The notes under the pieces were generated by a model, which made no database searches, was not told the origin of the DNA, and saw only the letters and a list, made by a program, of their open reading frames with translations. Both the position numbers and the translations under genes were made by a program. From Paenibacillus polymyxa (GTDB lineage Bacteria > Bacillota > Bacilli > Paenibacillales > Paenibacillaceae), in NCBI RefSeq assembly GCF_001719045.1, contig NZ_CP015423.1, positions 2,006,001 to 2,070,000 of the forward strand: 64,000 bases of DNA, in the 5' to 3' direction. Positions 13,380 to 61,836 of the stretch are shown piece by piece (positions within the stretch are counted from its first letter, which is position 1; every line of letters starts with the position of its first letter).

Positions 13380-13382
13380 CAT

Positions 13383-17449: not shown

Positions 17450-17510
17450 TGTCAGGTGATAAAAAAGTCTGAAACCACCACAAATTACCATAAAAAGGAA
17501 GTTGGAAACT
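17450..17510 (+). repeat. Left end of the Tn7-like element
   Basis: Terminal TGTCAGGTGATAAAAAAGT followed by CTGAAACCA, inverted relative to the right end. A further TnsB-like half (GTTGGAAAC) lies at about 17501. Fewer and wider-spaced sites than at the right end are typical of Tn7 left ends. Confidence 0.82.
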
Positions 17511-17534
17511 TGTACTATTACGATAATATAATTT

Positions 17535-17780
17535 TCATAACCATTTCCTCAATATACTGAATGTCGCATATAACGTGCTTAAATGATCAATTTTCTTTTT
17601 CAAAGAATTATCTCTAATAATCTGTCCATCTTTAGTCCATTGTCCATATATTTGAACTAACCACCCTGTAGTTCGTGAGAGTTCAAGAAGTGCTGTGCCA
17701 TTATATCTCTAGCTAGTTTATTAATTCTCTTTTTTTGTTCGAATGATAGCTTGATTTTACTTCATTCTTTAAATAGTGAA
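17535..17780 (-). pseudogene. Frameshifted remnant of an unrecognised gene near the left end
   Basis: Two overlapping minus-strand frames join into one coding-like sequence. KIKLSFEQKKRINKLARDIM followed by AQHFLN is in one frame. SRTTGWLVQIYGQWTKDG, then IIRDNSLKKKIDHLS to a final RKWL is in another, with stop at 17535. The switch lies near 17680, and an in-frame stop precedes the first part. Composition is helical and basic. I do not recognise the family; it is part of the element cargo. The rest of 17478-17921 shows nothing else convincing. Confidence 0.4.
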
Positions 17781-17921
17781 CTTATGGAATGGTTTGATTC
17801 TTAGTATACCAAAGGTAAACTACGATTTCTGTTGTGTTTTGTCGATTTTCCAATAAATTGAAATCGTTGCTCAGCGGAACTTGACGTCAGATTCCTGTGG
17901 TGGATTTTTCCCTTTCATTTG

Positions 17922-17980
17922 GAAAAAACACCCGGCAGGATGCGTACCGAGAGAAATACGGCATACACCCAAGCCGGGTA
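17922..17980 (-). terminator. Terminator of the pmx operon
   Basis: Minus strand: CCCGGC and GCCGGG enclose an inner stem ATGCCGTA / TACGCAT, and the outer stem is followed by TGTTTTTT. It starts about 5 bp after the pmxE stop codon. Confidence 0.82.
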
Positions 17981-17985
17981 AGGGA

Positions 17986-20900
17986 TTAGAAAATAATATC
18001 AATGGCCTCTAGCACATCTTGCTCCTGTTCGGATTGCCCGTTCAGGGAAATATCCTTCAACAGCACCGAAGGCTGTTCGCAAATTTGGGTGATGATCACG
18101 AGCAGGTCCTGAGCGAAATTGTCGATCAGATTGCGCGTAAACAACTTGGTGGCATATTCAAACTGCCCGTTCATTCCCTCATCCAGCAACGAAATGACCA
18201 AGGTAAGATCAAATTGGGAAACCGTATGAGTTTCCGGATAAGATTCGATCTTGATATCCCCGAAGCTTTGAACATTATCTTCCTTGGTTTCCAGAACAAA
18301 CATGATATCGAATACAGGATTGCGGCTTTGATCTCGCGGCGCCTGCAGCTTTTTCACAAGCTCCTCGAACGGATAATCCTGGTGGTCGTAGGCCCCCAGC
18401 ATCGTTTCTTTGACTTCGTTCAAGTAAGCGAGGAACATCTTCTCCCCGGACGGATAATGGCGAATCGCCAAAGTGTTGACAAACATTCCGATGAGCGGCT
18501 CCAGGTCGGCATGTGTGCGGCCCGAAACCGGTATGCCTACAATGAAGTCTTCTTGTCCTGAGTACTTGCTGAGCAGGATTGAATAGGCCGCCAATAACAC
18601 CATATAAAGGGTGGCACCGTTCTCATCGGCGATGCGCTGCAAGCTATCGGTCATCTGCTTGTCGATGCTGAAAGGCAGCACATCTCCCTCAAAGCTGCGA
18701 GCGGCAGGTCTGACAAAGTCCGTAGGCAATTCAAGCGTTGGCAGTTCGCCTTCCAGCACGTCCAGCCAGTAGGCTTCCTGACGTTTCAGCCGCTCTTTTA
18801 CAGGTTCGGACTGCTGCCAAGCGGCAAATTCCTTGTATTGAATCCGAAGCGGTTCCAGAGTCTCACCGTTATACAGGCGCAGCAACTCTTCGACGAAGAT
18901 GCCCATCGACATGCCATCCGTGACGATATGATGAATGTCCAGCATGAGCAGATGCCGTTCCGCTTCCCATTCGACTAAGCCCACACGCAACAGCGGCGGC
19001 CGCTCCAAATCAAAGACGCGCACAAAGCCGTCTACGATGCTCTTCGTTTCACTTTCCGTCGCTTTCGTATACTCGACGGCAAACTTCAAGTCCGGATAAA
19101 CTCGTTGTACCGGTTCGCCGTCGACCATTTCGAAGCCGGTTCGCAAAATTTCGTGACGAGCTATCAATCCTTTGAGCGCCGCCTCGAATTGATTCCGTTC
19201 CAAGCGCCCGACGAGAACCGTCATGCCGGACATGTTGTAGCTAAGCTCGGCGCCTTCCATCTGCTGCTGGATGTACAGCCGTTTTTGCACGGAGGAAAGC
19301 GGATAGTAATCCCTCTTATCCAGAACCGGAATGGAGAGGTGTTCCTGCCGCTCCAATTGGCTGATCGCTTCGGCCATCGCTTCGATGGTCGAGTGCCGGA
19401 ACACATCGCGCAGCGGCAGGTCCACGCTCAGCTCCTTGTGCACCTTGCTGACCAGCGTCGTCGCCCGCAGGGAATGCCCGCCGAGGTCGAAGAAGTTGTC
19501 CGTCACGCCAATCGTGACCGGTCCGAGCACGTCCTGCCAGATGGCGACCAGTTTCGCCTCCAGTTCGGTGCACGGCGCCACGTATTCGCGGCCTGCGCTT
19601 GCTCCCCCTTCCGGCGCCGGCAGCACCTTCCGGTCGATTTTCCCGTTCGGCGTCAGAGGCAGGCGCTCCAGCTCGACGAAGTACGACGGGATCATGTAAC
19701 CCGGCAGCTCGCTGGAGATCGCCCGTTTCAGGTCTGCCGCCGTCAGTTCGCCATCCGTTGTGTAGTACGCGCACAGCGCTTTCTGCCCGTTCGCGTCACT
19801 TCGAACCAGCACCACCGCTTCGCGCACGCCTTCCACCCGCAGCAGCTGCGACTCGATCTCGCCCGTCTCGATCCGGTAGCCCCGGATTTTCGCCTGGTTG
19901 TCGATCCGGCCGATGAAGTCCACGTTGCCGTCCTCCATCCACCGCGCCAAGTCTCCCGTGCGGTACAGTCGCTCGCCCGCGGCGAACGGGCTGTCTACGA
20001 ACTTCTCTTCCGTCAGCTCCGGACGGTTCAAGTACCCGCGCGCCACTCCGACTCCGCCGATGACCAGCTCGCCCAGCACCCCGACCGGCACCGGGTTCAG
20101 ATGCGCATCCACGATGTAGAATTTCGCATTCAGCCACGCTTTGCCGATCGGCACATTGCCTGTCTGCGGCAGCTTCGCCAGCTCCTCGTCGTAGAAGCTG
20201 GAGTCGATCGCCGCTTCCGTCACGCCGTATGCGTTGATGATCCGGAACAACGAGCCGAAGCGTTCCTGCAAGGTCCGGTAATCCGCCACGCTGCAGCTGT
20301 CCGAGCTCGTGATCAACAGCTCCATCCAGCTCATATCCAGCCGCTGCTCGTGCACGTACTCCAGGAACGGCACGATCAGCGCCGGCGTCGATTCGAAGAT
20401 GGTGACCCGCTCCCGCTCCATCCAGTGGTGCAGACGAGACGGATCGATCCGGTCGTCCTTCGGCACAATCACCATCGTGCCTCCGTTGTACAGCGTCCGC
20501 GCGATATCTCCCACGAACACGTCAAACGAGAAGCTTGCGAGCTGCAGCAGCCGCACCGGGAACTGATCCAACCGGTATTCCCGCCGGTAGCCCGCCGCCG
20601 TATTCACCAGGCTGCGGTGCTCGATCATCACGCCCTTCGGCTTGCCCGTCGTTCCCGACGTGTAGATCACGTACGCCAGGTCCTCTGGACGGGCTTCATG
20701 GAAGCTGTCGGTGCCAACATTCTGATGGCTCTCATCGCCGTCGTCCACAGCATCCGTCAGCTTGCCGGAGACCATGCCGGAGCCAATCGGCGCATTCGTC
20801 CGCTCCTCGCTGTACGAAGTTTCGTCGTCGAGGTACAGCACCGCCGCCAGCGCCAGCTCCTCTTCGTCGAGCCAGGCTTCGGCACGCTCTCGCAGCGCCG

Positions 20901-23900
20901 TTTGCGTCAGCAGTACCTTCGCTCCGCTGTCTTCGAGCATGAACCGCACGCGCTCCGCCGGGTAATCCGGGTCGAGCGGCACATATGCCCCACCCGCTTT
21001 CCAGACGGCCAGAACGGCCACCAGCAAGTCCACCGAACGCTCGGCGAGAATGCCAACGATCGTCTCCCGGCCGATGCCGCTTGCACGCAGCGTGGCCGCC
21101 AAGCGGTTCGCCCGCTCGTTCAGCTCCGCATACGTCAGCCGGTCGTTCTCGTACACGACGGCCGCCTCTTCCGGCGTGCGCTCCGCCTGTTCCTCGAACA
21201 GCCGGTGGAACGCGGCCGCAGGAGCCGCTTCCGGCTGCGCCGGGTTAAACGCGCCGAGAATTTGCTCTTTTTCCGCCGGTGTCAAAATGCCCAGCTCGGC
21301 AATAGTCGCCGACGGGTTGCGGAGAATGGATTCAAGCAGCTGCAAGTAGTGAGCGGCCAATTTCTCCACCGTCTCGGTTTTATAAAGAGCAGTGGCGTAT
21401 TCAAACAGATATTCCAAGCCTTCCTCGATCTCCGTGACGTCCAAGCTGAGATCGAATTTAGAAACAATTTCTTCGCTGGCATACGTCGACAAATGGAGTC
21501 CGGGAAGCTGGATTTCCAAATTCTCTGTATTCTGCAAAGCAAACATCGTATCGAACAGCGGATTGCGGCTTAAATCGCGAGCCACGTTCACCTTATCCAC
21601 CAGTTCCTCAAACGGATAATTCTGATGTTCAAAAGCGCCCAGCGTCGTCTCCTTGATTTCCTTCAAGTAGTCAAGGAACGTCTTACCGGCAGCCGGATAA
21701 CTGCGGATGGCCAGGGTATTAACGAACATCCCGATCAGCGGCTGAACGTCGCTGTGATTTCTTCCCGCAATCGGCGTACCGACCACCACGTCTTCTTGCC
21801 CTGTATATTTATGCAATAATATTGTATAACCAGCAAGCAGAACCATGTAAAGTGTTGCGCCGTTCTCGGCTGCAAGCCGTTTCAGACCCTCGCTTTGCTC
21901 GCTATGCATAAACAATTGCAGCGTGCGGCCCTCGTAGCTCTGCATAGCCGGGCGCGGATAGTCCGTCGGCAATTCCAAAACCGGCAGCTCTCCGCGGAAC
22001 ATGTCGAGCCAGTAGGCTTCCTGCTTGGCAAGCTGAGCTTTCTGCTCGTCCGATTGCTGCCATACCGCATAATCTTTGTACTGAATGCGGAGCGGCTCCA
22101 ACTGCTCCCCGCTGTACAAGCGGACGAACTCTTCGATCAGTACGTCAATCGAAACGCCGTCAGATACGATATGATGCGTATCGAACATTAGAATGTGCCG
22201 GTCCGGCGCCAGTTCGGCAAGGCCTACCCGCAGAAGTGGCGGCTTCGCTAGATCAAACGGACGAACGAATTGGCGCACCGTTTCTTCCGCCTGCTCCCCG
22301 CTGATCTGCACATATTCCACCTGGAAGGCGGCTTCTTCGTAAATCCGCTGAACCGCTTCGCCTTTTACCATCTCAAAGCCGGTACGCAGCGTTTCATGAC
22401 GAGCTACGAGCCCGCGGAACGCTTCTTCAAACCGCTGCCGATCGAGCTCCCCTTCGAGCAGCATAGCTCCCGGTATGTTGTAGCTCAGCTCGGCTCCTTC
22501 CAGCTGGTTCAAGATATAGAGACGTTTCTGAGCGGAAGAGAGCGGATAATACTCGCTAGGTTCCGCAGCCGGAATAGCCGTGAACGAGCCGATCTCCAGC
22601 CGCTCCATAGCCGCGGCCATTTCCTCAACCGTCGAGTAGCGGAATACGTCGCGAAGCGGGAATTCAACGCCTAGCTCCTTATGCATTTTGCTGACAAGTG
22701 TCGTCGCCCGCAGGGAGTGTCCGCCGAGGTCGAAGAAGTTGTCCGTTACGCCTACCGCCTTCTCCCGAACAAGCACATCCTGCCAAATGGCGGCCAGCTT
22801 CGCCTCCAGTTCGGTGCGCGGCGCCACGTATTCGCGGCCTGCGCTTGCTCCCCCTTCCGGTGCCGGCAGCGCCTTCCGGTCGATTTTCCCGTTCGGCGTC
22901 AGAGGCAGGCGCTCCAGCTCGACGAAGTACGACGGGATCATGTAACCCGGCAGCTCGCTGGAGATCGCCTGTTTCAGGTCCGCCGCCGTCAAGCCTTCTT
23001 CCGCTGTATAATAAGCGCACAAAGCTTTCTGACCTTCTTGATCTTCCCTGACGACGACGACCGCTTCCTTCACGCCACCTACACTCAGCAGCTTCGCTTC
23101 GACTTCGCCCGTCTCAATCCGGTACCCCCGGATTTTCGCCTGGTTGTCGATCCGGCCGATGAAGTCCACGTTGCCGTCCTCCATCCACCGCGCCAAGTCT
23201 CCCGTGCGGTACAGCCGCTCGCCCGCGGCGAACGGGCTGTCTACGAACTTCTCTTCCGTCAGCTCCGGACGGTTCAAGTACCCGCGCGCCACTCCGACTC
23301 CGCCGATGACCAGCTCGCCCAGCACCCCGACCGGCACCGGGTTCAGATGCGCGTCTACGATGTAGAATTTCGCATTCAGCCACGCTTTGCCGATCGGCAC
23401 ATTGCCTGTCTGCGGCAGCTTCTCCAGCGGCTCGTCGTAGAAGCTTGAGTCGATCGCCGCTTCCGTCACGCCGTAAGCGTTGATGATCCGGAACAACGAG
23501 CCGAAGCGTTCCTGCAAGGTCCGGTAATCCGCCACGCTGCAGCTGTCCGAGCTCGTGATCAACAGCTCCATCCAGCTCATATCCAGCCGCTGCTCGTGCA
23601 CGTACTCCAGGAACGGCACGATCAGCGCTGGCGTCGATTCGAAGATGGTGACCCGCTCCCGCTCAATCCAGTAGTGCAGACGAGACGGATCGATCCGGTC
23701 GTCCTTCGGCACGATCACCATCGTGCCTCCGTTGTACAGCGTCCGCGCGATATCTCCCACGAACACGTCGAACGAGAAGCTGGCGAGCTGCAGCAGCCGC
23801 ACCGGGAACTCATCCAACCGGTATTCCCGCCGGTAGCCCGCCGCCGTGTTCACCAGGCTGCGGTGCTCGATCATCACGCCCTTCGGCTTGCCCGTCGTTC

Positions 23901-26900
23901 CCGACGTATAGATCACGTACGCCAGATCCTCCGGACGGGCTTCATGGAAGCTGTCGGTGCCAACGTTCTGATGGCTCTCATCGCCGTCGTCCACAGCATC
24001 CGTCAGCTTGCCGGAGACAATGCCGGAGCCAATCGGCGCATTCGCCCGCTCCTCGCTGTACGACGCTTCGTCGTCCAGGTACAGCACCGCCGCCAGAGCC
24101 AGCTCCTCTTCGTCGAGCCAGGCTTCGGCACGCTCTCGCAGCGCCGTTTGCGTCAGCAGTACCTTCGCTCCGCTGTCTTCGAGCATGAACCGCACGCGCT
24201 CCGCCGGGTAATCCGGGTCGAGCGGCACATACGCCCCGCCCGCTTTCCAGACGGCCAGCACGGCCACCAGCAAGTCCACCGAACGCTCAGCGAGAATGCC
24301 GCCGATCGACTCCCGGCCGATGCCGCTTGCGCGCAGCGTAGCCGCCAAGCGGTTCGCCCGCTCGTTCAGCTCCGCATACGTCAGCCGGTCATTCTCGTAC
24401 ACGACAGCCGCCTCTTCCGGCGTGCGCTCCGCCTGTTCCTCGAACAGCCGGTGGAACGCGGCCGCAGGAGCCGCTTCCGGCTGCGCCGGGTTAAACGCGC
24501 CGAGAATTTGCTCTTTTTCCGCCGGTGTCAAAATGCCCAGCTCGGCAATAGTCGCCGACGGGTTGCGGAGAATGGATTCAAGCAGCTGCAAGTAGTGAGC
24601 GGCCAATTTCTCCACCGTTTCGGTTTTATAAAGAGCAGTGGCGTATTCAAACAGATATTCCAAGCCTTCCTCGATCTCCGTGACGTCCAAGCTGAGATCG
24701 AATTTAGAAACAATTTCTTCGCTGGCATACGTCGACAAATGGAGTCCGGGAAGCTGGATTTCCAAATTCTCTGTATTCTGCAAAGCAAACATCGTATCGA
24801 ACAGCGGATTGCGGCTTAAATCGCGAGCCACGTTCACCTTATCCACCAGTTCCTCAAACGGATAATTCTGATGTTCAAAAGCGCCCAGCGTCGTCTCCTT
24901 GATTTCCTTCAAGTAGTCAAGGAACGTCTTACCGGCAGCCGGATAACTGCGGATGGCCAGGGTATTAACGAACATCCCGATCAGCGGCTGAACGTCGCTG
25001 TGATTTCTTCCCGCAATCGGCGTACCGACCACCACGTCTTCTTGCCCTGTATATTTATGCAATAATATTGTATAACCAGCAAGCAGAACCATGTAAAGTG
25101 TTGCGCCGTTCTCGGCTGCAAGCCGTTTCAGACCCTCGCTTTGCTCGCTATGCATAAACAATTGCAGCGTGCGGCCCTCGTAGCTCTGCATAGCCGGGCG
25201 CGGATAGTCCGTCGGCAATTCCAAAACCGGCAGCTCTCCGCGGAACATGTCGAGCCAGTAGGCTTCCTGCTTGGCAAGCTGAGCTTTCTGCTCGTCCGAT
25301 TGCTGCCATACCGCATAATCTTTGTACTGAATGCGGAGCGGCTCCAACTGCTCCCCGCTGTACAAGCGGACGAACTCTTCGATCAGTACGTCAATCGAAA
25401 CGCCGTCAGATACGATATGATGCGTATCGAACATTAGAATGTGCTGGTCCGGCGCCAGTTCGGCAAGGCCTACCCGCAGAAGTGGCGGCTTCGCTAGATC
25501 AAACGGACGAACGAATTGGCGCACCGTTTCTTCCGCCTGCTCCCCGCTGATCTGCACATATTCCACCTGGAAGGCGGCTTCTTCGTAAATCCGCTGAACC
25601 GCTTCGCCTTTTACCATCTCAAAGCCGGTACGCAGCGTTTCATGACGAGCTACGAGCCCGCGGAACGCTTTTTCAAACCGCTGCCGGTCGAGCTCCCCTT
25701 CGAGCAGCATAGCTCCCGGTATGTTGTAGCTCAGCTCGGCTCCTTCCAGCTGGTTCAAGATATAGAGACGTTTCTGAGCGGAAGAGAGCGGATAATACTC
25801 GCTAGGTTCCGCAGCCGGAATAGCCGTGAACGAGCCGATCTCCAGCCGCTCCATAACCGCGGCCATTTCCTCAACCGTCGAGTAGCGGAATACGTCGCGA
25901 AGCGGGAATTCAACGCCTAGCTCCTTATGCATTTTGCTGACAAGCGTCGTCGCCCGCAGGGAGTGTCCGCCGAGGTCGAAGAAGTTGTCCGTTACGCCTA
26001 CTGTCTTCTCCCGAACAAGCACATCCTGCCAAATGGCGGCCAGCTTCGCCTCCAGTTCGGTGCGCGGCGCCACGTATTCGCGGCCTCCGCCTTCCGGTGC
26101 CGGCAACGCCTTCCGGTCGATCTTTCCGTTCGGCGTCAGAGGCAGGCGCTCCAGCTCCACGAAGTACGACGGGATCATGTACCCCGGCAGCTCGCTGGCA
26201 ATCGCCCGCTTCAGGTCCGCCGCCGTCAAGCCTTCTTCCGCTGTATAATAAGCGCACAAAGCTTTCTGACCTTCTTGATCTTCCCTGACGACGACGACCG
26301 CTTCCTTCACGCCACCTACACTCAGCAGCTTCGCTTCAATTTCACCAAGCTCGATCCGATAGCCGCGAATTTTCACCTGGTTGTCGATCCGGCCGATGAA
26401 GTCCACGTTGCCGTCCGGCATCCAGCGCGCCAGGTCGCCCGTCCGGTACAGCCGCTCCCCAGCGGCGAACGGGCTGTCTACGAATTTCTCCGCCGTCAAA
26501 TCCGGGCGGTTCAAGTAACCGCGGGCCACACCCGCTCCGCCGATAACCAGCTCGCCCAACACCCCGATCGGCACCGGCTTCAGATTCGCATCCACGATGT
26601 AGAACTTGGCGTTCAGCCACGCTTTCCCGATCGGCACGCTGCCCGTCTTCGGCAGCTTCTCCAGCGGCTCGTCATAGAAGCTGGAGTCAATCGCCGCTTC
26701 CGTTACGCCGTAGCTGTTAATAATACGGAACTCCGAGCCGAAGCGCTCCTGCAAGGTGCGGTAATCCGCTACGCTGCACGCATCCGAGCTTGTGATCAGC
26801 AGCTGCATCGAGCTGAGCTCCAGACCCTCGGCATGCACATGCTCCATGAACGGCACGATCAGCGCCGGAGTCGATTCGAATACCGTCACGGCGTAGTCGC

Positions 26901-54700: not shown

Positions 54701-57605
54701 GATGAACCGCGAGCAGCAAATGATCGCCGTCCGCGCACCGGAACAGTCCCGCCTTCACGAGGGGCCCGTTCTCCAGATCGATGCCCGCTTGAATGTCCGT
54801 TGCCTTCGCTTCCACAGCCTGGGCGGTATTCTCCGCATCCTTGAAGTCGAACACGTCCAGCGTGAACAGCCCGCCTTCCTGAATCGCGCGATTCCGCGCG
54901 CTAAACCCTTGTTCCGTCTTGCGGAACACCATCCGCAAGGCGTCATGATGCTCGGCCAGCTTTTGCAGCACCTGACGTACCGTCTCTTCGTCGAAGCTTT
55001 CCTTCCGGTACAGCATCACCGACTGGTTGAAATGATGCGGGGCCGCAAAGGAGCTCTCGAAAAACCAAAGCTGAATCGGCGTCAGCGCCGTTTCACCCGT
55101 TATTTCGCCTTGATCGATGGTACGTCCGATCGGTTTCACATGCAGGCTGAGCTGTGAGATAGTCGGATATTTGAACAAATCCCGGATTTCCAGCTTGTAC
55201 CCGGCTTGATGAAGCCGCGAAGATACTTGAATGGACTTGATCGAGTCTCCGCCCAGCTCGAAGAAATGATCCGTTACCCCAACGCGATCGGCGTTCAATA
55301 CCGCCTGCCACACATCGGCAAGCGTCCGCTCGGCTTCATTGCGGGGAGCTACGTACGCGCCGCCGGTCAGCGCGTTTCCTTCCGGAGCGGGCAAAGCCTT
55401 GCGGTCGATTTTGTCGTTCGGCGTGAGCGGCATCCACGGAAGCTGAACAAAATGCGCTGGAATCATGTAATTCGGCAATTTTTGCGCCAGCGCGCTTCTC
55501 AGCTCGCCGAGCGTAAGCGGGCGGCCCGCGACCAGGTAAGCGCACAGTTCTTGCCCGCTTTTGCCTTCCCGCGCGATTACAATCGTCTCCTGCACGGAGT
55601 CGATCTTCAGAAGCTGCTCTTCAATCTCGCCGATCTCGATCCGGAATCCACGGATTTTCACCTGATGGTCAATCCGGCCCAAGTACTCAATATTTCCGTC
55701 CGGGAGCCAGCGGGCCAAGTCGCCCGTCCGGTACAGTCTCTCTCCGGGCTCAAACGGGTGTTCGATGAATTTCTCCGCCGTCAGATCCGGCCGGTTCCAA
55801 TATCCCCGGGCGAGGCCGACGCCCGCGATGCATAATTCTCCCTCCACTCCGATAGGCGCCAGCTGATTCTGTGCGCCCAGTATATACAAGCGATGGTTCC
55901 AGATCGGACGTCCGATCGGTATCGCTCTGCGTTCGGTGTCATGCGTAGACGCCGCCCACACGGATGTGGCAATCGAGGCTTCCGTCGGACCGTACGCGTT
56001 ATAGTACTGTACCTTGTCTTTCCACTGCTGCACGAATTCGGCTGAAACGGCGGAGCCCGCCGTGATGAGCCTGCTCAGACTCGGCAGGCGGTCTGAATTC
56101 AAATAAGCCGCATAAGTTGGCGGCAAAGTGGCGATCGTAATTGCATGCTCGTTCATGAAACGTTCGAACAGCTGATCATCCAAAATCGTCTCGGTTGACG
56201 GTATATATAAGGTCGCCCCGAAATACAGAGCGTTGAACATCTCCCAACACGACGCATCGAACGATAGGCTGGCGAATTGCAGCACTCGATCCTGTTCGGT
56301 CGTGTGAAGCGTATGGGCAAACGTCAGTTCCAGGCTGACCAGCCCGCGATGCTCCAGCATGACCCCTTTGGGTTTGCCCGTCGTACCTGATGTATAGATG
56401 ACATAAGCCAGATCGTTCGGACCGCTGGCCGGCTCCAGGTTCGAGCCATCGTCGCTGTAGGCCTGCTCGTCATCCAGCGCCACCACGGTCCCTTCGAACG
56501 GCACCTGCTCCAGCAACTCCCTTTGAGTCAGCAGCAGCTGCGCGTTCGAGTTCTCCAGAATGTAGCGGATGCGTTCTTCCGGGTATTCCGGGTCGATCGG
56601 CACGTAGGCACCGCCAGCTTTCAGAACCGCCAGAATGCCAACGACCGTCTCCAGCGATCTCCTGGCCATCAAGCCTACCAGCTGATTGGGCAGCACGCCG
56701 ACCGATCGCAGCGTCCGCGCCAGCCGGTTCGCCCGTTCGTTCAGCTCCGCGTACGAAAGCCGCCGCCCCTCAAAGACAACCGCCGTCGCTTCGGGCACCC
56801 GCTTCGCTTGCTCCTCCACGAGCTGATGAATCGTCCGATCACGGGGATAGTCCTTCTCGGTATCGTTAAAGCTTTGCAGCAATTGAAATTTCTCGTCCTC
56901 CGACAGCATGTCCGCCCGCACGATGTCCAGCTCCAACTCGTGAAGCCCCACGGCCAGCAGGCGATTCAGATGGCCGACGACCCGAGTCATGAACTCGGAG
57001 TCATATAAGTGCTCGTTATATGACAGTGCTAGCTGTATCGTCCCGCCGGTTAAGCTGAATTCAAAGGAACAATCCGTGACCACGTTTTGCCCGATTTCGT
57101 CCAGATGCAGCTCCTTAAGGGATACTAGCGTATGGACGACGGGTATCCCGCCTGCATATTGCAGGTCCAGCTTCTCCGTCATTTTCAAGAACGGAATATG
57201 TTGATGCTGAATCGCTTCCGGCAAGGAAGTCCTCAGCTCGCTCAGAAGCGTTCTAAAAGTCGCACCCGCCGAAAGCGAGTTTTTCAAAATGATCGTATGA
57301 TTAACGGATCGGCGCGTCTCCGTCGGTTTCCGTACAACCGGCATGCCGACCAGAATGTCAGAAGCGCCTGTATATTTATGCAAGAGCGACTGAACACCGG
57401 CGAGCAAAATCATAAAAGTGGCCAGCGGAGCGCCCTTGCTCATTTGAAGTACTCGCTGCGCCACTTCCTCCGAAAGCGTCCCGCCGACGGTTGTCATAAT
57501 GGGCGCCAGGGAGCTTGGAGCTTTGCTGTATGGCAGCCGCGTCAAGGTATAATCGTCGCTACCGAATTTTTCGTTCCAAAACAACATTTCTTTTTCAAAA
57601 GCCAT
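42702..57605 (-). CDS. pmxA: Polymyxin synthetase PmxA: modules 6-9 (D-Phe/Leu, Leu, Dab, Dab)
   Basis: 4967 residues from the ATG at 57605 (AGAGGGG about 10 bases upstream). The frame stays open 100 codons further up, but that part looks non-coding and the Met-Ala-Phe-Glu-Lys start mirrors PmxB. Order: half-C lobe (1-255), A6-T6-E6 (code DAWTIAAIAK, carrier LGGDS, epimerase HHAVVDG near 968), C7-A7-T7 (QHILMDG; code DGFLLGLVYK), C8-A8-T8 and C9-A9-T9 (both DVGEISAIDK, Dab), and a terminal C (HHMVSDG, 4500-4967). It adds a D-configured Phe-like residue 6, a Leu-like residue 7, Dab8 and Dab9, then condenses onto Thr10 on PmxB. First gene of the operon. The code of A6 is closest to Phe (DAWTIAAICK) but has Ala at the ninth position, so Leu is not excluded. 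Confidence 0.95.
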   Translation of the reverse strand: MAFEKEMLFWNEKFGSDDYTLTRLPYSKAPSSLAPIMTTVGGTLSEEVAQRVLQMSKGAPLATFMILLAGVQSLLHKYTGASDILVGMPVVRKPTETRRSVNHTIILKNSLSAGATFRTLLSELRTSLPEAIQHQHIPFLKMTEKLDLQYAGGIPVVHTLVSLKELHLDEIGQNVVTDCSFEFSLTGGTIQLALSYNEHLYDSEFMTRVVGHLNRLLAVGLHELELDIVRADMLSEDEKFQLLQSFNDTEKDYPRDRTIHQLVEEQAKRVPEATAVVFEGRRLSYAELNERANRLARTLRSVGVLPNQLVGLMARRSLETVVGILAVLKAGGAYVPIDPEYPEERIRYILENSNAQLLLTQRELLEQVPFEGTVVALDDEQAYSDDGSNLEPASGPNDLAYVIYTSGTTGKPKGVMLEHRGLVSLELTFAHTLHTTEQDRVLQFASLSFDASCWEMFNALYFGATLYIPSTETILDDQLFERFMNEHAITIATLPPTYAAYLNSDRLPSLSRLITAGSAVSAEFVQQWKDKVQYYNAYGPTEASIATSVWAASTHDTERRAIPIGRPIWNHRLYILGAQNQLAPIGVEGELCIAGVGLARGYWNRPDLTAEKFIEHPFEPGERLYRTGDLARWLPDGNIEYLGRIDHQVKIRGFRIEIGEIEEQLLKIDSVQETIVIAREGKSGQELCAYLVAGRPLTLGELRSALAQKLPNYMIPAHFVQLPWMPLTPNDKIDRKALPAPEGNALTGGAYVAPRNEAERTLADVWQAVLNADRVGVTDHFFELGGDSIKSIQVSSRLHQAGYKLEIRDLFKYPTISQLSLHVKPIGRTIDQGEITGETALTPIQLWFFESSFAAPHHFNQSVMLYRKESFDEETVRQVLQKLAEHHDALRMVFRKTEQGFSARNRAIQEGGLFTLDVFDFKDAENTAQAVEAKATDIQAGIDLENGPLVKAGLFRCADGDHLLLAVHHAVVDGVSWRILMEDFAVGYEQAGKSEEIRFPAKTDAYRTWSEQLAAYAQSPEMAKERAYWQAVEQIAVPAVPKDLEADVTTQQDSESLFVRLTPEETELLLKRVHRAYNTEMNDILVTALGIAVRKWTGHERVRINLEGHGRESIGTDIDITRTVGWFTTKFPVVLEPETDRDLAYQIKQVKESLRRIPNKGLGYGVCRYLSKSEDGFVWGAEPEINFNYLGQFDDDVNQDEIGISSYSSGSPASDRQARSFVLDINGMVLDGALSLDLSYSRKQYRKETMEAFAQRLEQSLRELITHCAGKENTELTPSDVQFKGLTIAELEQIAQRSGHLGEIENIYSLTPMQKGMWFHSALDRQTAAYFEQTRFTMRGALDVQLFERSWMELAKRHLVLRANFVKGPAGEPLQIIYRDKPVGFEYEELLHLQADEKQAYLDKKAEDDKLRGFDMEHDALVRVTILRTEEQSYHVLWSFQHILMDGWCLPQLTQELFETYSALASGKQPAGDKGSDYGAYIEWLEKQDDQAASGYWTAFLAGYEGQTVLPGQKEPAPNGRFTADHVTAELGKDLSERMDRVAKQRLVTVNTLLQAAWGVMLQKYNGTNDAVFGSVVAGRPAEIPGIESMIGLFINTVPVRVTSEADTVFADLMAKLQERALESGRYDYYPLYEIQARSVQKQNLINHIIAFENYPVDEQMEQAGDQQHGDLTIADVQMEEQTNYNFNVTVVPGVEIEIRFDFNAEVFDKDSIELLKGHLVHLLEQVTDNPEITVGELELVTEAEKADLLGRFNDTTTEFPRGKTLIQLFEEQAERIPDAAAISLNEQELTYRELNERVNRLARTLRSHGISKGRLVAIMAERSIEMVVGMLAAHKAGAAYVPIDPEYPEERIRFLIEDSGAQVMLTQSRLRERLAGSDSVILLDDESFYHEDGTNLNPGTEATDLACVIYTSGTTGKPKGNLVSHRNIVRIVRNTNYIDITERDHVLQLSSYSFDGAIFDIFGALTNGARLVLVPRETLLEIVRLADLIQRERISVMLITTAFFNVLVDVNVDCLRDVRAILFGGERVSVGHVRKALAHIGPGRLNHLYGPSESTVYTTYLPVDFVDESAVTVPIGRPISNTKVYIVDSRNKLLPIGVAGELCVGGEGLVRGYNNRPELTAEKFVDNPFVLGERMYRTGDLAKWLPDGTIEYVGRTDDQVKIRGFRIELGEIEAQLQKVEGIRKATVFAREDASGEKQLCAYYEADRELPAAELKSVLSQELPAYMIPAYLIQLERLPLTTNGKVDRRSLPAPEESLQPGEERTPPRTPLEASLAGIWKSVLGLEHIGVHDNFFDLGGHSLRATTLVSKVHQELNVELPLRDVFRYSTIEEMALAISRIGEQSFSSIPLADARAYYPLSSAQKRLFILNQLEGADQSYNMPGVLLLEGSIDRSLLEKAFRGLIARHETLRTGFEIVQGEAVQRIYESVDFAVEYRHVSEEEAPEVVQAFIRPFDLAKPPLLRAELVELAAERYLLMFDMHHIVSDGVSMDVLVEELVRMYGGESLEPLRIQYKDYAVWQQSDEQKAQLKREEAYWLDRYRGELPVLEMPTDYPRPAVQSFEGQTLTSFVDEATNEGLKQLAAQRGTTLYMVLLAAYTVLLQKYTGQDDLIVGTSIAGRTHGDTQPLIGMFVNTLALRNYPASEKTFLSYLEEVKETTLGAYEHQNYPFEELVDKVQVSRDLSRNPLFDTMFSLQNLEDKEFELEGLKLSPYPSEYGTAKFDLSVDVTEENGGLECSFEFATALYKESTIRRLSTHFGHLLAAIVSCPDAKIAELGILTPAEKEQILGAFNPAQPEAAPAAAFHRLFEEQAERTPEAEAVVYENDRLTYAELNERANRLAATLRASGIGRETIVGILAERSVDLLVAALAVWKAGGAYVPLDPDYPAERVRFMLEDSGAKVLLTQTALRERAEAWLGEEELALAAVLYLDDEASYSEERANASVVSGMVSGKLTDAVDDGDESHQNVGTDSFHEARPEDLAYVIYTSGTTGKPKGVMIEHRSLVNTAAGYRREYRLDQFPVRLLQLASFSFDVFVGDIARTLYNGGTMVIVPKDDRIDPSRLHYWIERERVTIFESTPALIVPFLEYVHEQQLDMSRLELLITSSDSCSVADYRTLQERFGSLFRIINAYGVTEAAIDSSFYDEELAKLPQTGNVPIGKAWLNAKFYIVDAHLNPVPVGVLGELVIGGVGVARGYLNRPELTEEKFVDSPFAVGERLYRTGDLARWMEDGNVDFIGRIDNQAKIRGYRIETGEIESQLLRVEGVREAVVLVRSDANGQKALCAYYTPDTGAELAMNDLRSALAQELPGYMIPSYFVELERLPLTPNGKIDRKALPAPEGEAGSGTEYVAPRNELETKLAAIWQEVLGLAKEIGVHDNFFDIGGHSLRATTLVSKIHKGLNVDLPLRDVFRHSTIESMAAAISRLDEQTFVAIPMADDREVYPQSFAQKRLFILNQLEGAELSYNMPEAMLLEGALDRARFEEVFRKLVARHETLRTGFEMVDGEASQRIYQDVNFAVEFYRADEQEAEETVRRFVRPFDLAKPPLLRVGLVELAPKRHILMYDMHHIISDGVSMEIFVEEFVRLYGGEQLEPLRIQYKDYTVWQHSQEQKERLQRQEAYWLDMFQGELPVLEMPTDYPRPAVQSYEGQTLEFFFDASKTDGLKQLASETGTTLFMVLLAAYNVLLHKYSGQEDVIVGTPIAGRNHGDVQPLIGIFLNTLAIRSYPASEKTFLSYLNEVKETTLHAFEHQNYPFEELVDKVQVTRDLSRNPLFDTLFTMQNTENEEFELEGLRLIPYPSALDTAKFDISLDVGEENGGLDYSFEYATALYKRETIERLAKHYEQLLVTIVSHPDAKIAELNLLTAEEKEQILGAFNPAQPEAAPAAAFHRLFEEQAERTPEAAAVVYENDRLTYAELNERANRLAATLRASGIGRETIVGILAERSVDLLVAVLAVWKAGGAYVPLDPDYPAERVRFMLEDSGAKVLLTQTPLRERAEAWLGDEELALAAVLYLDEEASYSEERANASVVSGMVSGKLTDAVDDGDESHQNVGTDSFHEARPEDLAYVIYTSGTTGKPKGVMIEHRSLVNTAAGYRREYRLDEFPVRLLQLASFSFDVFVGDIARTLYNGGTMVIVPKDDRIDPSRLHHWIERERVTIFESTPALIVPFLEYVHEQQLDMSRVELLITSSDSCSVADYRTLQERFGSLFRIINAYGVTEAAIDSSFYDEELTKLPQTGNVPIGKAWLNAKFYIVDAHLNPVPVGVLGELVIGGVGVARGYLNRPELTEEKFVDSPFAAGERLYRTGDLARWMEDGNVDFIGRIDNQAKIRGYRIETGEIESQLLRVEGVREAVVLVRSDANGQKALCAYYTPDTGAELVVNDLRSALAQELPGYMIPSYFVEMERLPLTPNGKIDRKALPAPEGEAGSGTEYVAPRNELETKLAAIWQEVLGLAKEIGVHDNFFDIGGHSLRATTLAGKVFKELNVNLPLRDVFRHSTIAAMAEAIARMERREHEAIPQAEEREYYPLSSAQKRLFIQHTLDGADQLYNMPELVQVEGEFDLDRLEAALRKLITRHESLRTGFEIVKAEAVQRIYPQVDFAIEHHQADKEDAAQIEQIVRSFVRPFDLGKPPLLRAGVIELEPNLHILLFDMHHMVSDGVSMAIVIDEFSSFYAGEELPPLRIQYKDYAVWQQSKAHRERIGRQEAYWLQTFEGELPTADLPMDYERSAARSYEGAHLEFDVEASLSARLRELAAERESTLFMVLLAAYTVLLSKYSGQEDLVVGTPVAGRTNADLEPVIGMFVNTLAIRNRPSGDKTFLSYLEEVKETALGAFENQDYPFEELVERLNVKREPGRFPLFDAVFDLQNIEERDAELEGVSLKTYELDHLEEAKFDLTLFMYENNGALSGGFFYATKLFKEAMIRTLTEDYLRVLSQIAENPQLELSRIECHKPAAGAKSAVDTIEFAF
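44160..46010 (-). repeat. Dab adenylation block, pmxA module 9 copy
   Basis: Offset by 3252 bp from the module 8 copy. Near-identical through the adenylation domain and carrier, whereas the preceding condensation domains differ. Also close to the Dab blocks of pmxE modules 4 and 5. Boundaries are approximate. Confidence 0.8.
47412..49262 (-). repeat. Dab adenylation block, pmxA module 8 copy
   Basis: Partner of 44160-46010. Both share the post-A8 segment YRIETGEIESQLL with pmxE module 5, which is absent from pmxE modules 1 and 3. Confidence 0.8.
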
Positions 57606-58373
57606 CTGGATCGTTCCCCTCTCTTCATCGGTAAAAGCAATCCGGCGGAGCATATGCCGCAGCAACGCTCCCCGCCTTTTCAAACATGTGACAACAATGT
57701 CAATGGCTTTCGCCAGGTCACCGCTTCGCTTGCCCGGTTGATCGCATGCGGCAATCCTCTGCCTAGCAGCTGTCCCGCTCGGCTCCCATGCGTGAAAGAC
57801 AACAAAGAGCATCGTTCTACGCAAGAGATGCGGCTGCTTCCGGCTCCTCTGCTTCAATATGCTTGCTGCGGACGAGCTGCCCGAAGACGGGCTTTGGTTT
57901 AACATTGGGTTCGGAATTGGATTTGGGGGTGAACAAGGGATGTTCCTCCCATCGATGTAAGGCTTACTGTAGGATTCCGGCCGGCCAGCAGGAAGTCGGC
58001 CGTACCTCCGGATTCGGCACCGGAGCTGCCTTTGTCGAAGCCTATGTTTAAGGGATATTGATACACTCTATGTACGATTTGTATATTCCCCCACCTGGTG
58101 TGGATAAGTAAAGATCCGGCTGCGGGGTAGTGAGCTTTTCCTGACGATTAGATGTGACGATGGTGCTGCATGAGGCTCAAAGAATGCTCCGTATGGCATG
58201 AACGGGACAGCCCTTGGATTGGCGGTGAATTCCATGCTGTCTGACGGTACCGCAGGCAGTATGGAGAGAAAATCTTCCAATGGGGTGAAAACGTTATCTT
58301 AACATCAGGGCCGCACGGCCCCCGGAAGGCACTTCCGTGCCTCTTGCCGGGGCGGCCACCGGCTTGGCCAAGC
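57606..58373 (-). promoter_or_regulatory. Long structured region upstream of pmxA
   Basis: 768 bp between the ectB remnant and pmxA, where the operon promoter should lie. A G+C-rich nested hairpin spans 58309-58358 (outer GGCC/GCCCC arms, inner GGCAC-TTCC-GTGCC). Another, CTCCGG / CCGGAG, lies near 58006-58025. The A+T-rich island 58051-58095 contains TATACA and weak -35-like TTATCC, 16 bases apart, on the minus strand. On the opposite strand the same island reads TTGATA-18-TATATT, but no plus-strand gene follows. I cannot name the start site. The 300 bp next to pmxA is an open frame without codon-like residues. Confidence 0.4.
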
Positions 58374-59276
58374 TTAGGTCGTTACCAGCAAATCCTGGGT
58401 CTCCTGAGAGATCACCTGCTGCATACTGGACTTGATAATGTCGCAGCCGGTGGCCAGATGCTCCATCGAGACGGTCAGCGGAGGCATGATCTTTAGTACG
58501 CGGTCTCCTCTGCCGGCTCTTTCAATGATTAGCCCGTTCTCGAAGCTGATCTCCGTCATCCGCTTCGCCCCGGCTTCATCCGTGAAGCCCGAGACGTCAA
58601 TGCCCCAGATCAGGCCGAGTCCGCGGATGGCGATGGACGGATGCAGAGGCTTGATTTCTTTGTCAAAGAACGAGCGCACAAACTCTTCCTTCTGCTTCAC
58701 CTCGGCTTCCAGGGCGGCTCTGTCCCGGAACTCGAGAGCGGCCTTCGCGGCCGGCTTGTCGATTCCAGAGTGCGAATCAGTCAGGATATTCTCGATATAG
58801 CCGAGCGTATCCATTTCTGCGAAAGCCCCGCTCGGGTGCGGCATGAACGTAACTCCGCCCAGAGGAAGCCCCGCCCCTTCCCTCATAGACTTGGAGCTTG
58901 TCGCCGACAGGCTGCCGATCGACATGCCGTGGAAGCCGCCCATGAATGCGAATATCCCGGTTCTCTTCTTCGCCTTGCGTGCGAGCTTAAGGGCCGCTTC
59001 CACCGCGTTCGTCCCCGTCGGACCGCAGACTTGAAGCTTGTAATCCAGCTTCTTCGGCTCCAGGATCCGCTCCGAGAAGCTCTTGAAGAATTCGCGCTTG
59101 GCCATTGTATACATATCCAGACCGTGCATAATCCGGTCGGAGGTCAAGTAATCGAGAACCTGGTCCTTGATATAATCGTTGTTATGACCGTAATTCAGTG
59201 CCCCGGCACGTGCAAAAAAATCAATATATGCTCTTCCGTCCTCAGAATATAACAGCTCCCCACCTTCTGACGTCAT
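58374..59276 (-). pseudogene. ectB: Diaminobutyrate-2-oxoglutarate aminotransferase remnant lacking its catalytic core
   Basis: EctB-type class III aminotransferases make L-2,4-diaminobutyrate, the main building block of polymyxin. This frame keeps the N-terminal half (YIDFFARAGALNYGHNN, then CGPTGTNAVEAALKLARK and GGFHGMSIGSLSATSSK) and the C-terminal domain (IAIRGLGLIWGIDVSGF). Between DSHSGIDKPAA and KAALEFRD, about 120 residues are missing in frame. The lost part holds the PLP-binding Asp and the Schiff-base Lys (SKSISG region) and the FRGN loop. It is 300 residues against a usual 420-430. About 30 N-terminal residues are also missing; the ATG at 59276 has no ribosome site and a stop lies two codons upstream. 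FFAGAG has become FFARAG. It cannot be an active transaminase. Same strand as pmxA and directly upstream of it. Confidence 0.88.
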
Positions 59277-59764
59277 GGATCAACATATTCTCGGCTGTCA
59301 TTTTCCACAATTGTCGGTCTCCGCATGCCGGCTTGCTGGGTAGCCAGTGGACTGGTCTCTCGCACACAGCTTGGATAGGTATAAAAACCATCCAATTCTA
59401 TTTTCTATCATAATTGGAAAGATGACCTAGGTAGAATTATATCAAAATTTCCAATAATGTATAGTAAAACTTCAGTTAAATTTGGTCAACATGGTGTTAA
59501 TATTTTGCCTAAAAAGAGCGAATGGAGAAGAAACGCTGGGAATGGTTTGCCATCAATCGAGGAATTCGACGCGTGTCGACATTCAGGCGGGGTGCCGGCC
59601 GATTTGGGAGATCTTCCCTGTAGACATTCTCTGTCGGTGCTCCGAATCCTTGCGCTTTGCGATAACTTAACATGATTACCTGACGAATTTCTGGAAGCCT
59701 GGCTGGAAACGTGACTGGATGTCAGCTGGATACTCTGCTGGAAAATCCGTTGGATACTCGCGTT
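59277..59764. other. Intergenic debris between ectB and tnsA remnants
   Basis: About 490 bp. The left part is A+T-rich. 59530-59700 is more G+C-rich and stays open on the minus strand in several frames (for example RSPKSAGTPPECRHASNS) but matches nothing I know. No promoter or terminator stands out. Confidence 0.4.
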
Positions 59765-59876
59765 TTAGGTCGGGTGTAACGTTAACTCCAGACGGTCCAA
59801 TATCGTTCGAATGATCTCGTATGCCCGATCCGCATCCTTCTTGGGGATATATTGGCGCTCTACGGTTTGCGGAATG
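59765..59876 (-). pseudogene. Possible group II intron reverse transcriptase fragment
   Basis: In the frame offset from tnsA, the minus strand reads IPQTVERQYIPKKDADRAYE followed by IIRTILDRLELTLHPT and a stop. The end resembles the EIIR-ILDRLGLTLHPEKTR segment that follows the YADD box of group II intron maturases. A one-base shift near the stop continues with PKTRVSNG. Only about 35 residues are involved, so the assignment is weak. Confidence 0.35.
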
Positions 59877-60225
59877 TGCAATAAATTTTATACTTTCTTC
59901 TTGTTTTACTGTAAGCAACATATCTGTAGTCATAATGATGGGAAGCTTATTCTTGGGGTCAGTTGGATGTTTAATGCCTAACTTTTGTGCAATATAGAGG
60001 GTTTTATCTAGGGGTAATAAAGGAAATTGTTCGCGAATATCAATCTCTTGCTCTGACCACTCCATTTGGTAATGATGTGCCAATTCAAAGTGTTCAGACA
60101 GATAATGGTGAAGTCGACCACTTTTCCAACCAAGGTTTATATTCCGAAAAGTGGCCTTGACCTCTTCCTTCTTTGATTTTCCGTTGAATAGATGCTATAG
60201 ATTTACTTGATCGAATTTTGTTCAT
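59870..60225 (-). pseudogene. tnsA: Tn7-type endonuclease TnsA, broken
   Basis: TnsA cleaves the 5' ends of Tn7 during cut-and-paste transposition. From the ATG at 60225 the frame reads MNKIRSSKSIASIQRKIKEG and FSEYKPWL. After a frame change it continues as KSGRLHHYLSEHFELAHHYQ, MEWSEQEIDIREQFPLLPL, IAQKLGIKHPTDPKNKLPI and IMTTDMLLTV. This is the TnsA N-terminal catalytic domain, with the E of the SE(H/L)FE block, DIREQFPL and the MTTDFLI-like core. The segment that should lie between YKPWL and KSGR is deleted out of frame, and similarity stops after FIAHS, well short of a full TnsA. It lies near the right end of the element and reads away from glmS, as tnsA does in Tn7. Confidence 0.82.
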
Positions 60226-60518
60226 TATTCACCTTCTTTTTAGAACTACTAAATCAGAGGAAAGTTCAGTTATCTTTTTCTACTCCTAAGATATATTTTA
60301 GTTTACTTCAAAATACAAATGTAGAATATAACAACTCACAGCTTTATACAATAGCAAAGCGATATTTTTTAGCTATATTTTACTTTGTATCCTATTCATA
60401 GCTACTCGTAGAGTACAGTAGGGTATGAAAAGCTATAATATGGGCTATAAGTAGGTATAATTAGTAAGCAGATGGGTCGGGTTAAAACCTATTTGATATT
60501 CTCAATAGAGGTGAACTC
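60226..60518. other. A+T-rich intergenic stretch
   Basis: 293 bp with no supported gene. It probably includes the promoter of the plus-strand XRE gene; GAGGTG lies about 7 bases before its ATG. Confidence 0.4.
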
Positions 60519-60946
60519 ATGAATTATTTGGGACAGCCATGTAGAAATTTAAGACTACTCCATAAATGGACACAAGAGGAACTTGCTAATAAAATCGGGG
60601 TAACCAAACACGTTGTTTCTAATTGGGAGCGAAATGTAGCACGACCTGAAATTAATCATTTAATATCTTTAGCAGAGGTTTTTGATGTTACAACCGATTA
60701 TTCACTTTGTATTGCTAATCAAATGACGTTCCCCTACTGTGTGGACTCAATGATACAATTCATTCGGACCTTAATAACGAGAAAATCAAAAAATCCTTTG
60801 ATCTTTTATCATTTCTAAATTCTGGTTTTCGAATTGAATTAAATGGGCAGGTATTAGAACAAGAAGATTTGAATCTAATCGGTAAAAATATTACCTTTTT
60901 AATGGAGCATTTTGTCTCTCCTTTAAAGAAAAGATATAGTAAATAG
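60519..60946 (+). pseudogene. XRE-family regulator with a single-base frameshift
   Basis: The first 68 residues form an HTH_3 DNA-binding domain: ARNLRLLHKW-like start (CRNLRLLHKWTQEELANKIG), then VTKHVVSNWERNVARPE and LISLAEVFDVTTDY. At 60719-60723 the sequence has CAAATG; one extra A would give NQNDVPLLCGLNDTIHSDLN and carry the frame to FVSPLKKRYSK with stop at 60944-60946, about 142 residues in total. As written, the protein ends at 60818 (99 residues) with an unrelated tail. The cause is a real deletion or a homopolymer sequencing error. Such SinR-like regulators often sit in mobile elements; the target is unknown. Confidence 0.75.
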
Positions 60947-61039
60947 AAAATTTTAGTACCCATTAGTTCACTTAAAGAAGTAGCGCCTCACACCTTCTTT
61001 TACAATTTAATTAACTATGTGTTAGCTGAAGTTTTACTT

Positions 61040-61237
61040 TTAGGGATAGTCTTTCAATATTTCTTTTGCAAGTTTCATTAGTTGCACACTCTGTAAATAG
61101 ATCTCTATGTTAAGACCTTGCAATGATTCTTTTACCACCAATCTACATTCTTCATAATCTTCAAATCCATTTCTTATGTAAATTGATTTTAGATCAGTTG
61201 GGGATCTAATGCTGAGGTTCCAACCGCCTTCTTTCAA
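61040..61237 (-). CDS. Hypothetical protein, possibly the C-terminal part of a decayed gene
   Basis: 65 residues from a TTG at 61237 (MKEGGWNLSIRSPTDLKSIY to LMKLAKEILKDYP). The frame stays coding-like for about ten further codons upstream (KCEKWFERAL) before a TAA, with no ATG, so the 5' part seems lost. Trp- and Glu-rich and soluble. I do not recognise the family; small immunity-type proteins look similar. Neighbouring genes are also broken, which favours a remnant. Confidence 0.4.
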   Translation of the reverse strand: MKEGGWNLSIRSPTDLKSIYIRNGFEDYEECRLVVKESLQGLNIEIYLQSVQLMKLAKEILKDYP

Positions 61238-61383
61238 AGCTCTTTCAAACCATTTCTCACATTTTTAATTTTTTTATGCATAAATGCCATGAATAATCGG
61301 TATACGGATAATTCGTGACTTTTATGTACCAAAATTAAAATGAGTAATTCTAAGACATATTATTAAGGAACTCCCGCGAAAGA

Positions 61384-61721
61384 TTAGTACCGAACAATCT
61401 TCAGTTTTATAAAATCAATAATTTCATCTCTATCTTCTTTAGTAAGTTCTCGAAACAAAGAAATAAGTTCTAATTCCTGAGCTTCAATGGCTAAATTAAA
61501 AATAGTGTTCTTTGATACAGGCGTATCTTCAAAGATTAACCACTCTATATGAGAAGTGAAGTTTTCTTTAATTGCTATAATTATATCAAGAGAGGGTATG
61601 TATTTATCTTACTCCAGCTCACTCAACGTTCCTTGAGAAATTCCAATTATATTTGCAAACTTTATTTGATTCAAGTTGTTTGTTTTTCTAATAGTTCAAA
61701 TTCGTTGCCTATTGTAGACAT
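61384..61721 (-). pseudogene. Second XRE-family regulator, frameshifted and with an internal stop
   Basis: It starts at an ATG at 61721 with GGAGG 6 bases upstream: MSTIGNEFELLEKQT, then a frame change into NNLNQIKFANIIGISQGTLS and ELE, a TAA, DKYIPSLDIIIAIKENF and a C-terminus ELISLFRELTKEDRDEIIDF to KIVRY. The HTH pattern (IGISQGTLSELE-DKY) is clear. The TAA probably replaces CAA (Gln). Two independent lesions indicate a true pseudogene. It lies just inside the right end of the element. Confidence 0.72.
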
Positions 61722-61735
61722 AATTACCCTCCTAA

Positions 61736-61769
61736 GCTAAAAAGATCCCGATATATTATCGGGATCTTT
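61736..61769 (-). terminator. Terminator inside the right end, serving glmS transcription
   Basis: AAAGATCCCGATA, loop and TATCGGGATCTTT form a perfect 13-bp stem. On the minus strand it is followed by TTTTTAG. It is the first terminator after glmS but belongs to the inserted element. Confidence 0.88.
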
Positions 61770-61779
61770 CTTGATGTTT

Positions 61780-61836
61780 GTAAAATGACTAGTTCCAGAC
61801 TTTTTTACTGGTTCCACACTTTTTTATCACCAGACA
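61780..61836 (-). repeat. Right end of the Tn7-like element with tandem TnsB-like sites
   Basis: Minus strand from 61836: TGTCTGGTGATAAAAAA, then GTGTGGAACCAGTAAAAAA, then GTCTGGAACTAGTCATTTT. These are three tandem related units, the last two 19 bp apart. Dense sites at the end next to glmS and a TGT terminus match Tn7 right ends. Confidence 0.85.

Follow-up and report, generated by a model that had tools for sequence, protein, structure and literature searches.

The polymyxin operon of Paenibacillus polymyxa as probable cargo of a non-autonomous Tn7-like transposon at attTn7

Was the polymyxin operon of Paenibacillus polymyxa inherited as a neighbour of glmS, or was it carried there? We addressed this question for a 64,000-nucleotide stretch of contig NZ_CP015423.1 (the window), in which pmxABCDE lie downstream of glmS. 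The original prediction, made from this stretch by itself, held that the operon is cargo of a Tn7-like transposon at attTn7. Comparison with related genomes supports Tn7-type cargo and adds a correction, namely that the copy is non-autonomous and has no target-site duplication. We are highly confident that positions 17450-61836 constitute a 44.4-kb non-autonomous Tn7-like transposon at attTn7 that carries pmxABCDE and would be mobilised in trans. With less assurance, we regard it as probable that polymyxin biosynthesis throughout the Paenibacillaceae is a mobile non-autonomous Tn7-like unit, made up of the ends, an aminotransferase for the diaminobutyrate precursor, the synthetases, and the exporters, and repeatedly moved by autonomous relatives in trans between genera to glmS, where it joins stacked competing elements.

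The comparison covered a genus set of 75 genomes, including that of the window, and a family set of 394 genomes, one per species. In the genome scans pmxC served as the marker, and a genome was called pmx-positive if its PmxC was at least 91% identical. The window's GlmS belongs to a group of 15 genomes at 98-100% GlmS identity, which on this similarity we take to be the polymyxa group; in the second clade (clade 2), glmS is about 86% identical to that of the window. A genome titled P. polymyxa ISL-58 (G028, L145) has a GlmS only 86% identical to the window's, and its species label looks doubtful. The labelled genomes include G256 (P. agilis), G260 (P. arenosi), G261 (P. assamensis), G257 (P. 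alvei DSM 29), G147 (P. woosongensis), G045 (Paenibacillus sp. BJ-4), G018 (P. maysiensis), and G067 (P. xylanexedens).

Ends and insertion site of the element

Tn7 is characterised by TGT...ACA termini, several TnsB sites per end, a right end that faces glmS, integration about 24 bp beyond the stop codon of that gene, and a 5-bp duplication of the target. Both ends of the window element carry TGT...ACA inverted termini and TnsB-like sites. The outer 28 bases of the termini, starting at 17450 (+) and 61836 (-), agree at 25 of 28 positions, exactly where the original prediction had placed them; five shuffled windows peak at 18-20 of 28, and no further 28-mer within the window reaches 20 of 28. 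The right end faces glmS and begins after a spacer of precisely the predicted 24 bp. The tandem TnsB-like sites of the prediction correspond to two 19-bp direct repeats at 61788-61825. A right-end profile, run on the first 400 bases after glmS, matches the window from +25 after the stop codon at E = 3e-17, the window itself being among the several matched genomes that contributed to the profile. Other copies of the ends were also sought in the same genome, where a DNA query with the left end finds the left end itself, the right end, and nothing else.

The original prediction proposed a search of other pmx-positive genomes for the same ends. These ends recur there, but not in all of them. Both ends were read in pmx-positive genomes of three GTDB genera, and a search for right ends that tolerated 5 mismatches succeeded in 8 of 11 other-genus genomes; it gave none in the glmS-side stretches of G271, G283, and G259. 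A scan of the genus set with the end pattern, one mismatch tolerated, gave 16 matches in 12 genomes compared with 1 for the reversed pattern used as a control. Of the 16 matches, 15 lie at pmx elements or at a transposon of the pmx-free genome G013; the remaining one, in G018, lies too near a contig end (about 1 kb) to be placed. When elements of different genera are aligned, homology ends no more than 3 bases from the left terminus in 11 of the 15 pairs that reach it, and exactly at the terminal base in G045-G264, G256-G027, G147-G027, and G013-G274. On the right, the start of the homology block coincides with the terminus in 14 of the 44 blocks listed and lies at most 3 bases from it in 22, these 14 included; the rest begin 4-29 bases outside (the list omits blocks that begin over 60 bases outside). 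Two further observations concern end-like sequences. G016 has a right-end-like match with pmx homology extending no further than 36 bp, and G258 (C1:1589628-1633846; L226-L228) has a similar end pair 44 kb apart and 4 kb from glmS, enclosing ordinary-looking genes in which neither the Tns queries nor the aminotransferase had a match.

An empty site in relatives was proposed as a confirming check, and such sites are seen in clade 2. Among 25 pmx-negative genomes matching the 2.5 kb beyond the left end of the clade-2 element in G050, five (G001, G002, G015, G040, and G056) show an empty site: the flank matches from its base 5-6 onward, at base 22-25 after the glmS stop codon. The other 20 match this flank only further out. 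Among nine pmx-negative relatives from the window's own clade, three have the GH16 gene that adjoins the left end of the window element at 0.6 kb (G059), 2.9 kb (G063), and 6.8 kb (G061) downstream of glmS; in two more, G062 and G060, the distance is about 27 and 33 kb, respectively. Bases 39-105 (in G061) and 39-157 (in G063) of the window's left flank align 123 and 140 bases downstream of glmS, and a further 10-kb part of this flank is found 8.5 kb past glmS in G019. The junction itself is not clean, because a remnant of another Tn7-like element sits there (17418-17443), which we likened by eye to the glmS-proximal sequence of G008 and G018.

Target-site duplications were compared in 13 elements with both ends read. 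A perfect 5-bp duplication flanks three of them, and none of 156 mismatched flank pairs used as a control shows one. The three are the pmx elements of G045 (ATTTG) and G147 (AATAT) and the pmx-free transposon of G013 (TTAAA); in G147 the element and its duplication lie on one contig.

Distribution and transfer between genera

Thirty-seven of the family genomes are pmx-positive, 23 of them within the genus. In 26, pmxC shares contig and strand with glmS and lies 21.0-47.8 kb downstream of it; in 5 further drafts, the aminotransferase gene of the element lies 0.4-3.0 kb from the glmS stop codon. Thus, 31 of the 37 genomes, from four GTDB genera, have pmx downstream of glmS. Three drafts (G018, G270, and G284) give no position, and in the remaining three (G256, G260, and G261) pmx is at another locus. 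In G256 the whole element, with both ends, occupies a non-glmS site that is common to all three. At glmS these genomes (L103, L104 in G256; L116 in G260; L121 in G261) hold another Tn7-like end, and the gene about 0.2 kb before the pmx element at the second locus is presumably PaiB-like. The right flank of the G256 insertion is kept in G270 to about 140 bp from the junction and diverges earlier in G268. In 42 of the 75 genomes of the genus set, PmxC is without a match even at E 1e-100. Ten genomes have a PmxC relative of 64-69% identity, none of which was shown to lie less than 60 kb from glmS: three share its contig and are far off, and seven are on other contigs, so the contrast is limited by the draft state of these assemblies.

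Several families of Tn7-like ends occur at the position 23-25 bp past glmS (e.g., in L004, L009, L012, L015, and L105), a hot spot at which they are sometimes stacked, as in G027, G026, G147, and G013.

Similarity of pmx across genera exceeds that of its neighbour. In 14 other-genus genomes PmxC is 93-96% identical to that of the window and GlmS 72-83%. Third codon positions, compared with the window over about 620-700 codons of pmxA and 72-194 codons of other-genus glmS, are 72-89% identical in pmxA (12 genomes) versus 26-39% in glmS (6 measurable genomes), values that are hard to reconcile with descent. Judged by codon positions of this kind, pmx has evidently been transferred between genera. 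The corresponding ranges in clade 2 are 58-88% for pmxA and 46-49% for glmS.

Mobilisation in trans and the alternatives

The window element holds only a broken tnsA. The predicted inward-reading tnsA remnant is borne out by residues 41-128, which are 98.9% identical to the intact TnsA of G013, and residues 1-26 are 73% identical; the Pfam TnsA match falls under its cut-off (23.6 versus 26.5 bits). The suggested search for tnsB, tnsC, and tnsD found none of these genes in the element, and a TniQ search of the window's genome gave no match. A search of this genome for the rve family hit 8 places, none of them in the window, and is not informative for TnsB. An intact set does occur in a relative: at the same glmS position and with the same ends, pmx-free G013 has a 30-kb transposon encoding intact tnsA, tnsB, and tnsC and two TniQ genes with TnsD domains. 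The Pfam matches comprise TnsA N and C, Mu-transpos_C, AAA/TniB, and TnsD (289.7 and 135.6 bits), and its TnsB matches Tn7 TnsB (PDB 7pik) at 2e-99. The right arm of the window element resembles that of G013 in blocks at element positions 1-34, 12-572, and 577-1965. A second, inner left end lies 20 kb from the right end in G013, without a matching duplication, and therefore elements are nested there. In G147, a second element with tnsABC and two TniQ genes lies between glmS and the pmx element, 15 bp from the latter. The tandem pair of TniQ/TnsD-type genes present in both helper transposons (L105, oriented positions 9769-13441; L012, 7259-10998) suggests two target modes. Helper TnsB has only relatives of less than 60% identity among plasmids (461 records).

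The window copy is read as stranded because its genome has no TniQ match, its left end is short of 67 bp present in G045, G256, and others, and its right end has two TnsB-like repeats compared with four in G013. Having no tnsB, tnsC, or tnsD, shortened ends, and no duplication, it is a non-autonomous and probably stranded copy. Movement of such elements would proceed as follows: (i) TnsA and TnsB of a related autonomous element of the G013 type would cut at the shared ends, (ii) TnsC would act as activator, and (iii) a TnsD-type TniQ protein would steer insertion to about 23-25 bp past the glmS stop codon, duplicating 5 bp. Some vehicle would carry the element between cells, and with one fixed site in each new host polymyxin production could spread across the Paenibacillaceae.

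Several results weigh against this interpretation. Ten of the 13 elements have no 5-bp duplication: that of the window, with ACTTT on the glmS side and AACTA beyond the left end, those of five clade-2 genomes with one common junction, and those of G256, G274, and G027, the case of G264 being ambiguous. The G045 duplication is read across two contigs, with the ends and pmxC spread over three. With 3 mismatches tolerated, the search for left ends succeeded in 10 of 18 pmx genomes of the genus and in 4 of 8 from other genera; those without one are G025, G026, G036, G068, G032, G069, G029, and G053 in the genus and G121, G257, G260, and G271 outside it, and G262 has a right end and no left end in its left stretch. 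The unfound ends may have decayed or lie beyond the fetched stretch. At E<1e-3 the right-end profile recognises 13 of the 23 pmx-positive genomes of the genus, in which the matches start at +24 to +32, and 2 of the 52 pmx-negative ones; the right end is decayed in several pmx-positive species. Homology runs 5-45 bases beyond the left terminus in 4 of the 15 cross-genus pairs (G027-G264, G027-G274, G045-G274, and G147-G274), and pairs that include the window or clade 2 end short of it, in another register, because their left ends are shortened. In the stretches examined, the pmx elements have at most an interrupted tnsA and no intact tns operon, and are therefore termed non-autonomous. For the G256 insertion, the next 13 kb of G270 contain no match to the left flank, and in the plasmid collection PmxC has no match at E 1e-100. 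Finally, the deeper clade-2 copies have pmxA third positions at 58-65% versus 46-49% for glmS, and their pmxA amino-acid identity (76-82%) is below that of GlmS (85-86%); on the third-position test these copies would not count as evidence of recent transfer.

Some of these observations are what one would expect if pmx were an ancestral, vertically inherited neighbour of glmS and the Tn7-like ends were unrelated debris of a hot spot. Synteny of glmS and pmx in 31 of 37 genomes, a left-end junction common within clade 2 (as after one insertion followed by descent), deeper clade-2 pmxA not clearly closer than glmS, and a region downstream of glmS full of other Tn7-like ends all agree with descent. 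It cannot easily accommodate PmxC at 93-96% across genera whose GlmS is at 72-83%, the gap between pmxA and glmS at third positions, homology ending no more than 3 bases from the terminus in 11 of the 15 pairs between genera, the 42 genus genomes without PmxC, the G256 element lying elsewhere with its ends, or the perfect duplications of two pmx elements. Ancestral synteny as the main explanation is already contradicted by the evidence on transfer, termini, and duplications, and we consider it barely credible.

Spread by homologous recombination between glmS regions, after transformation or conjugation and through glmS and conserved flanks without a transposase, would account for two features of the window, the mosaic right arm with its G013-like sequence and the absent duplication. 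Because of these two features some exchange by recombination is likely, and the replaced arm and absent duplication would fit a later exchange of arms. As the main route it is rejected in its plain form on account of junctions that lie mostly at the termini, perfect 5-bp duplications at three elements, and glmS itself, which donor and recipient genera do not have in common; three genomes, moreover, carry pmx away from glmS. We rate recombination as very improbable, if a shade less so than simple descent, and retain the non-autonomous Tn7-like element as the explanation.

Cargo of the element and its significance

The features of the window are collected in Table 1. As predicted, the 44.4 kb enclose the whole operon: pmxA to pmxE follow one another in this order on the minus strand. 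Gene order, 4+1+5 modules, a PmxB of 1102 aa with a thioesterase, and two exporters indicate a polymyxin synthetase. The cluster agrees with that described for P. polymyxa M-1, with a PmxA of 5010 aa and 4 modules, a PmxB of 1102 aa, and a PmxE of 6312 aa (PMC3708778), apart from its shorter PmxE. For the domain scan PmxE was cut, which split one adenylation domain, hence counted twice. It shows six condensation/epimerisation-like stretches and is 487 aa shorter than PmxE of M-1, which has an epimerase in module 3; because of this difference, position 3 of the product is probably L-diaminobutyrate, as in polymyxin B/E.

Table 1. Coordinates of the transposon, its cargo, and adjoining features in the window (NRPS, nonribosomal peptide synthetase)
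Feature	Position	Strand	Description	Basis
Whole element	17450-61836		44.4 kb, right end toward glmS	
Left end	17450-17511	+	Terminal TGTCAGGTGATAAAAAAGT and inner TnsB-like site; without 67 bp found in other copies	
Right end	61788-61836	-	Terminal TGTCTGGTGATAAAAAAGT and two 19-bp TnsB-like repeats	Sequence, profile match
Spacer	61837-61860		24 bp between glmS stop codon (61861) and right terminus	Sequence
glmS	61861-63717	-	618 aa with SIS and glutamine amidotransferase domains (Pfam); its 3' end serves as attTn7 target	
Right arm	59872-61836	-	Two main blocks 90-94% identical to right arm of pmx-free G013 transposon	
tnsA remnant	59871-60225	-	Inward-reading, broken	Comparison with G013 TnsA, weak PF08722 match
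Diaminobutyrate aminotransferase gene	58377-59261	-	Broken; near full length in many related pmx elements	
pmxA	42702-57905	-	NRPS, 5067 aa, 4 adenylation domains	
pmxB	39239-42547	-	Terminal NRPS module and thioesterase; 1102 aa, as published	
pmxC	37423-39249	-	ABC exporter	
pmxD	35693-37426	-	ABC exporter	
pmxE	17986-35463	-	NRPS, 5825 aa, 5 modules	
Older-element remnant	17418-17443	-	Just outside left terminus; resembles right end of a different Tn7-like element	
GH16 glycosidase gene	16279-17112	+	Neighbour downstream of glmS in pmx-negative relatives	

The ancestral cargo would also have included the diaminobutyrate aminotransferase, which would supply the main building block of polymyxin. 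A near-full-length copy, judged by length irrespective of stops, adjoins pmx in 18 genus and 11 other-genus genomes, a count of 29 that includes the query source G256 and the G257 copy, which is short of about 38 residues. The gene is broken or vestigial in G000, G025, G026, and G027, the last three being polymyxa-group genomes that retain only about 30 residues. A self-sufficient cargo that includes the precursor aminotransferase is an attractive reading of this pattern rather than proof. In G054 (L036, L102), PmxC matches in two separate pieces, one of which contains a stop, and this pmx copy may therefore be decaying.

In their termini, in the several TnsB-like sites per end, in the right end turned toward glmS, in insertion about 24 bp past its stop codon, in the 5-bp duplication of the best copies, and in having a helper relative that encodes tnsABC together with two genes of the TnsD type, the pmx elements are like Tn7, which homes to glmS (PMC10293859). 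They differ from it in holding at most an interrupted tnsA, in having a 40-kb NRPS antibiotic operon as cargo, and, for the window copy, in the absent duplication.

The original prediction knew of no account of polymyxin synthesis as Tn7-type cargo, and this novelty holds in part. In the open full-text literature, that is, outside subscription papers and bioRxiv, none of the matches listed links polymyxin biosynthesis to Tn7, attTn7, or glmS. The kind of cargo, by contrast, has been published. The bicyclomycin (bcm) cluster, smaller than the pmx cluster, provides one precedent. At attTn7 of Pseudomonas aeruginosa it forms a complete, horizontally spread antibiotic cluster beside glmS (Vior et al. 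2018, PMC5930311), for which the available parts of that account delimit no transposon ends or duplication; the antibiotic and the phylum are also different. Benler et al. (2021, PMC8649781) list nonribosomal peptide synthases among known Tn7-like cargo and report few complete pathways carried by such elements, unlike the pmx elements, in which a complete pathway travels with its exporters; the words Paenibacillus, polymyxin, and glmS are absent from the main text of that paper. The general kind is thus known, through NRPS cargo and bcm at attTn7; polymyxin as cargo appears new against that open literature, and the cargo is unusually important. Polymyxins are last-line drugs.

The pmx cluster is treated as a strain trait, with no vehicle named, in the portions of the literature available to us. 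In a 2024 study all but twelve P. polymyxa strains are polymyxin-capable, and the twelve show no segregating pattern (PMC11271205). A delimited Tn7-like unit can explain such patchy occurrence, and it explains the near-identity of the pmx cluster across genera. Related clusters can be sought with the two ends and glmS as a ready marker, and whether a 40-kb antibiotic pathway is mobilised becomes directly testable. Carriage of the Tn7 type thus helps to explain the spread of polymyxin to distantly related bacteria of the Paenibacillus family.

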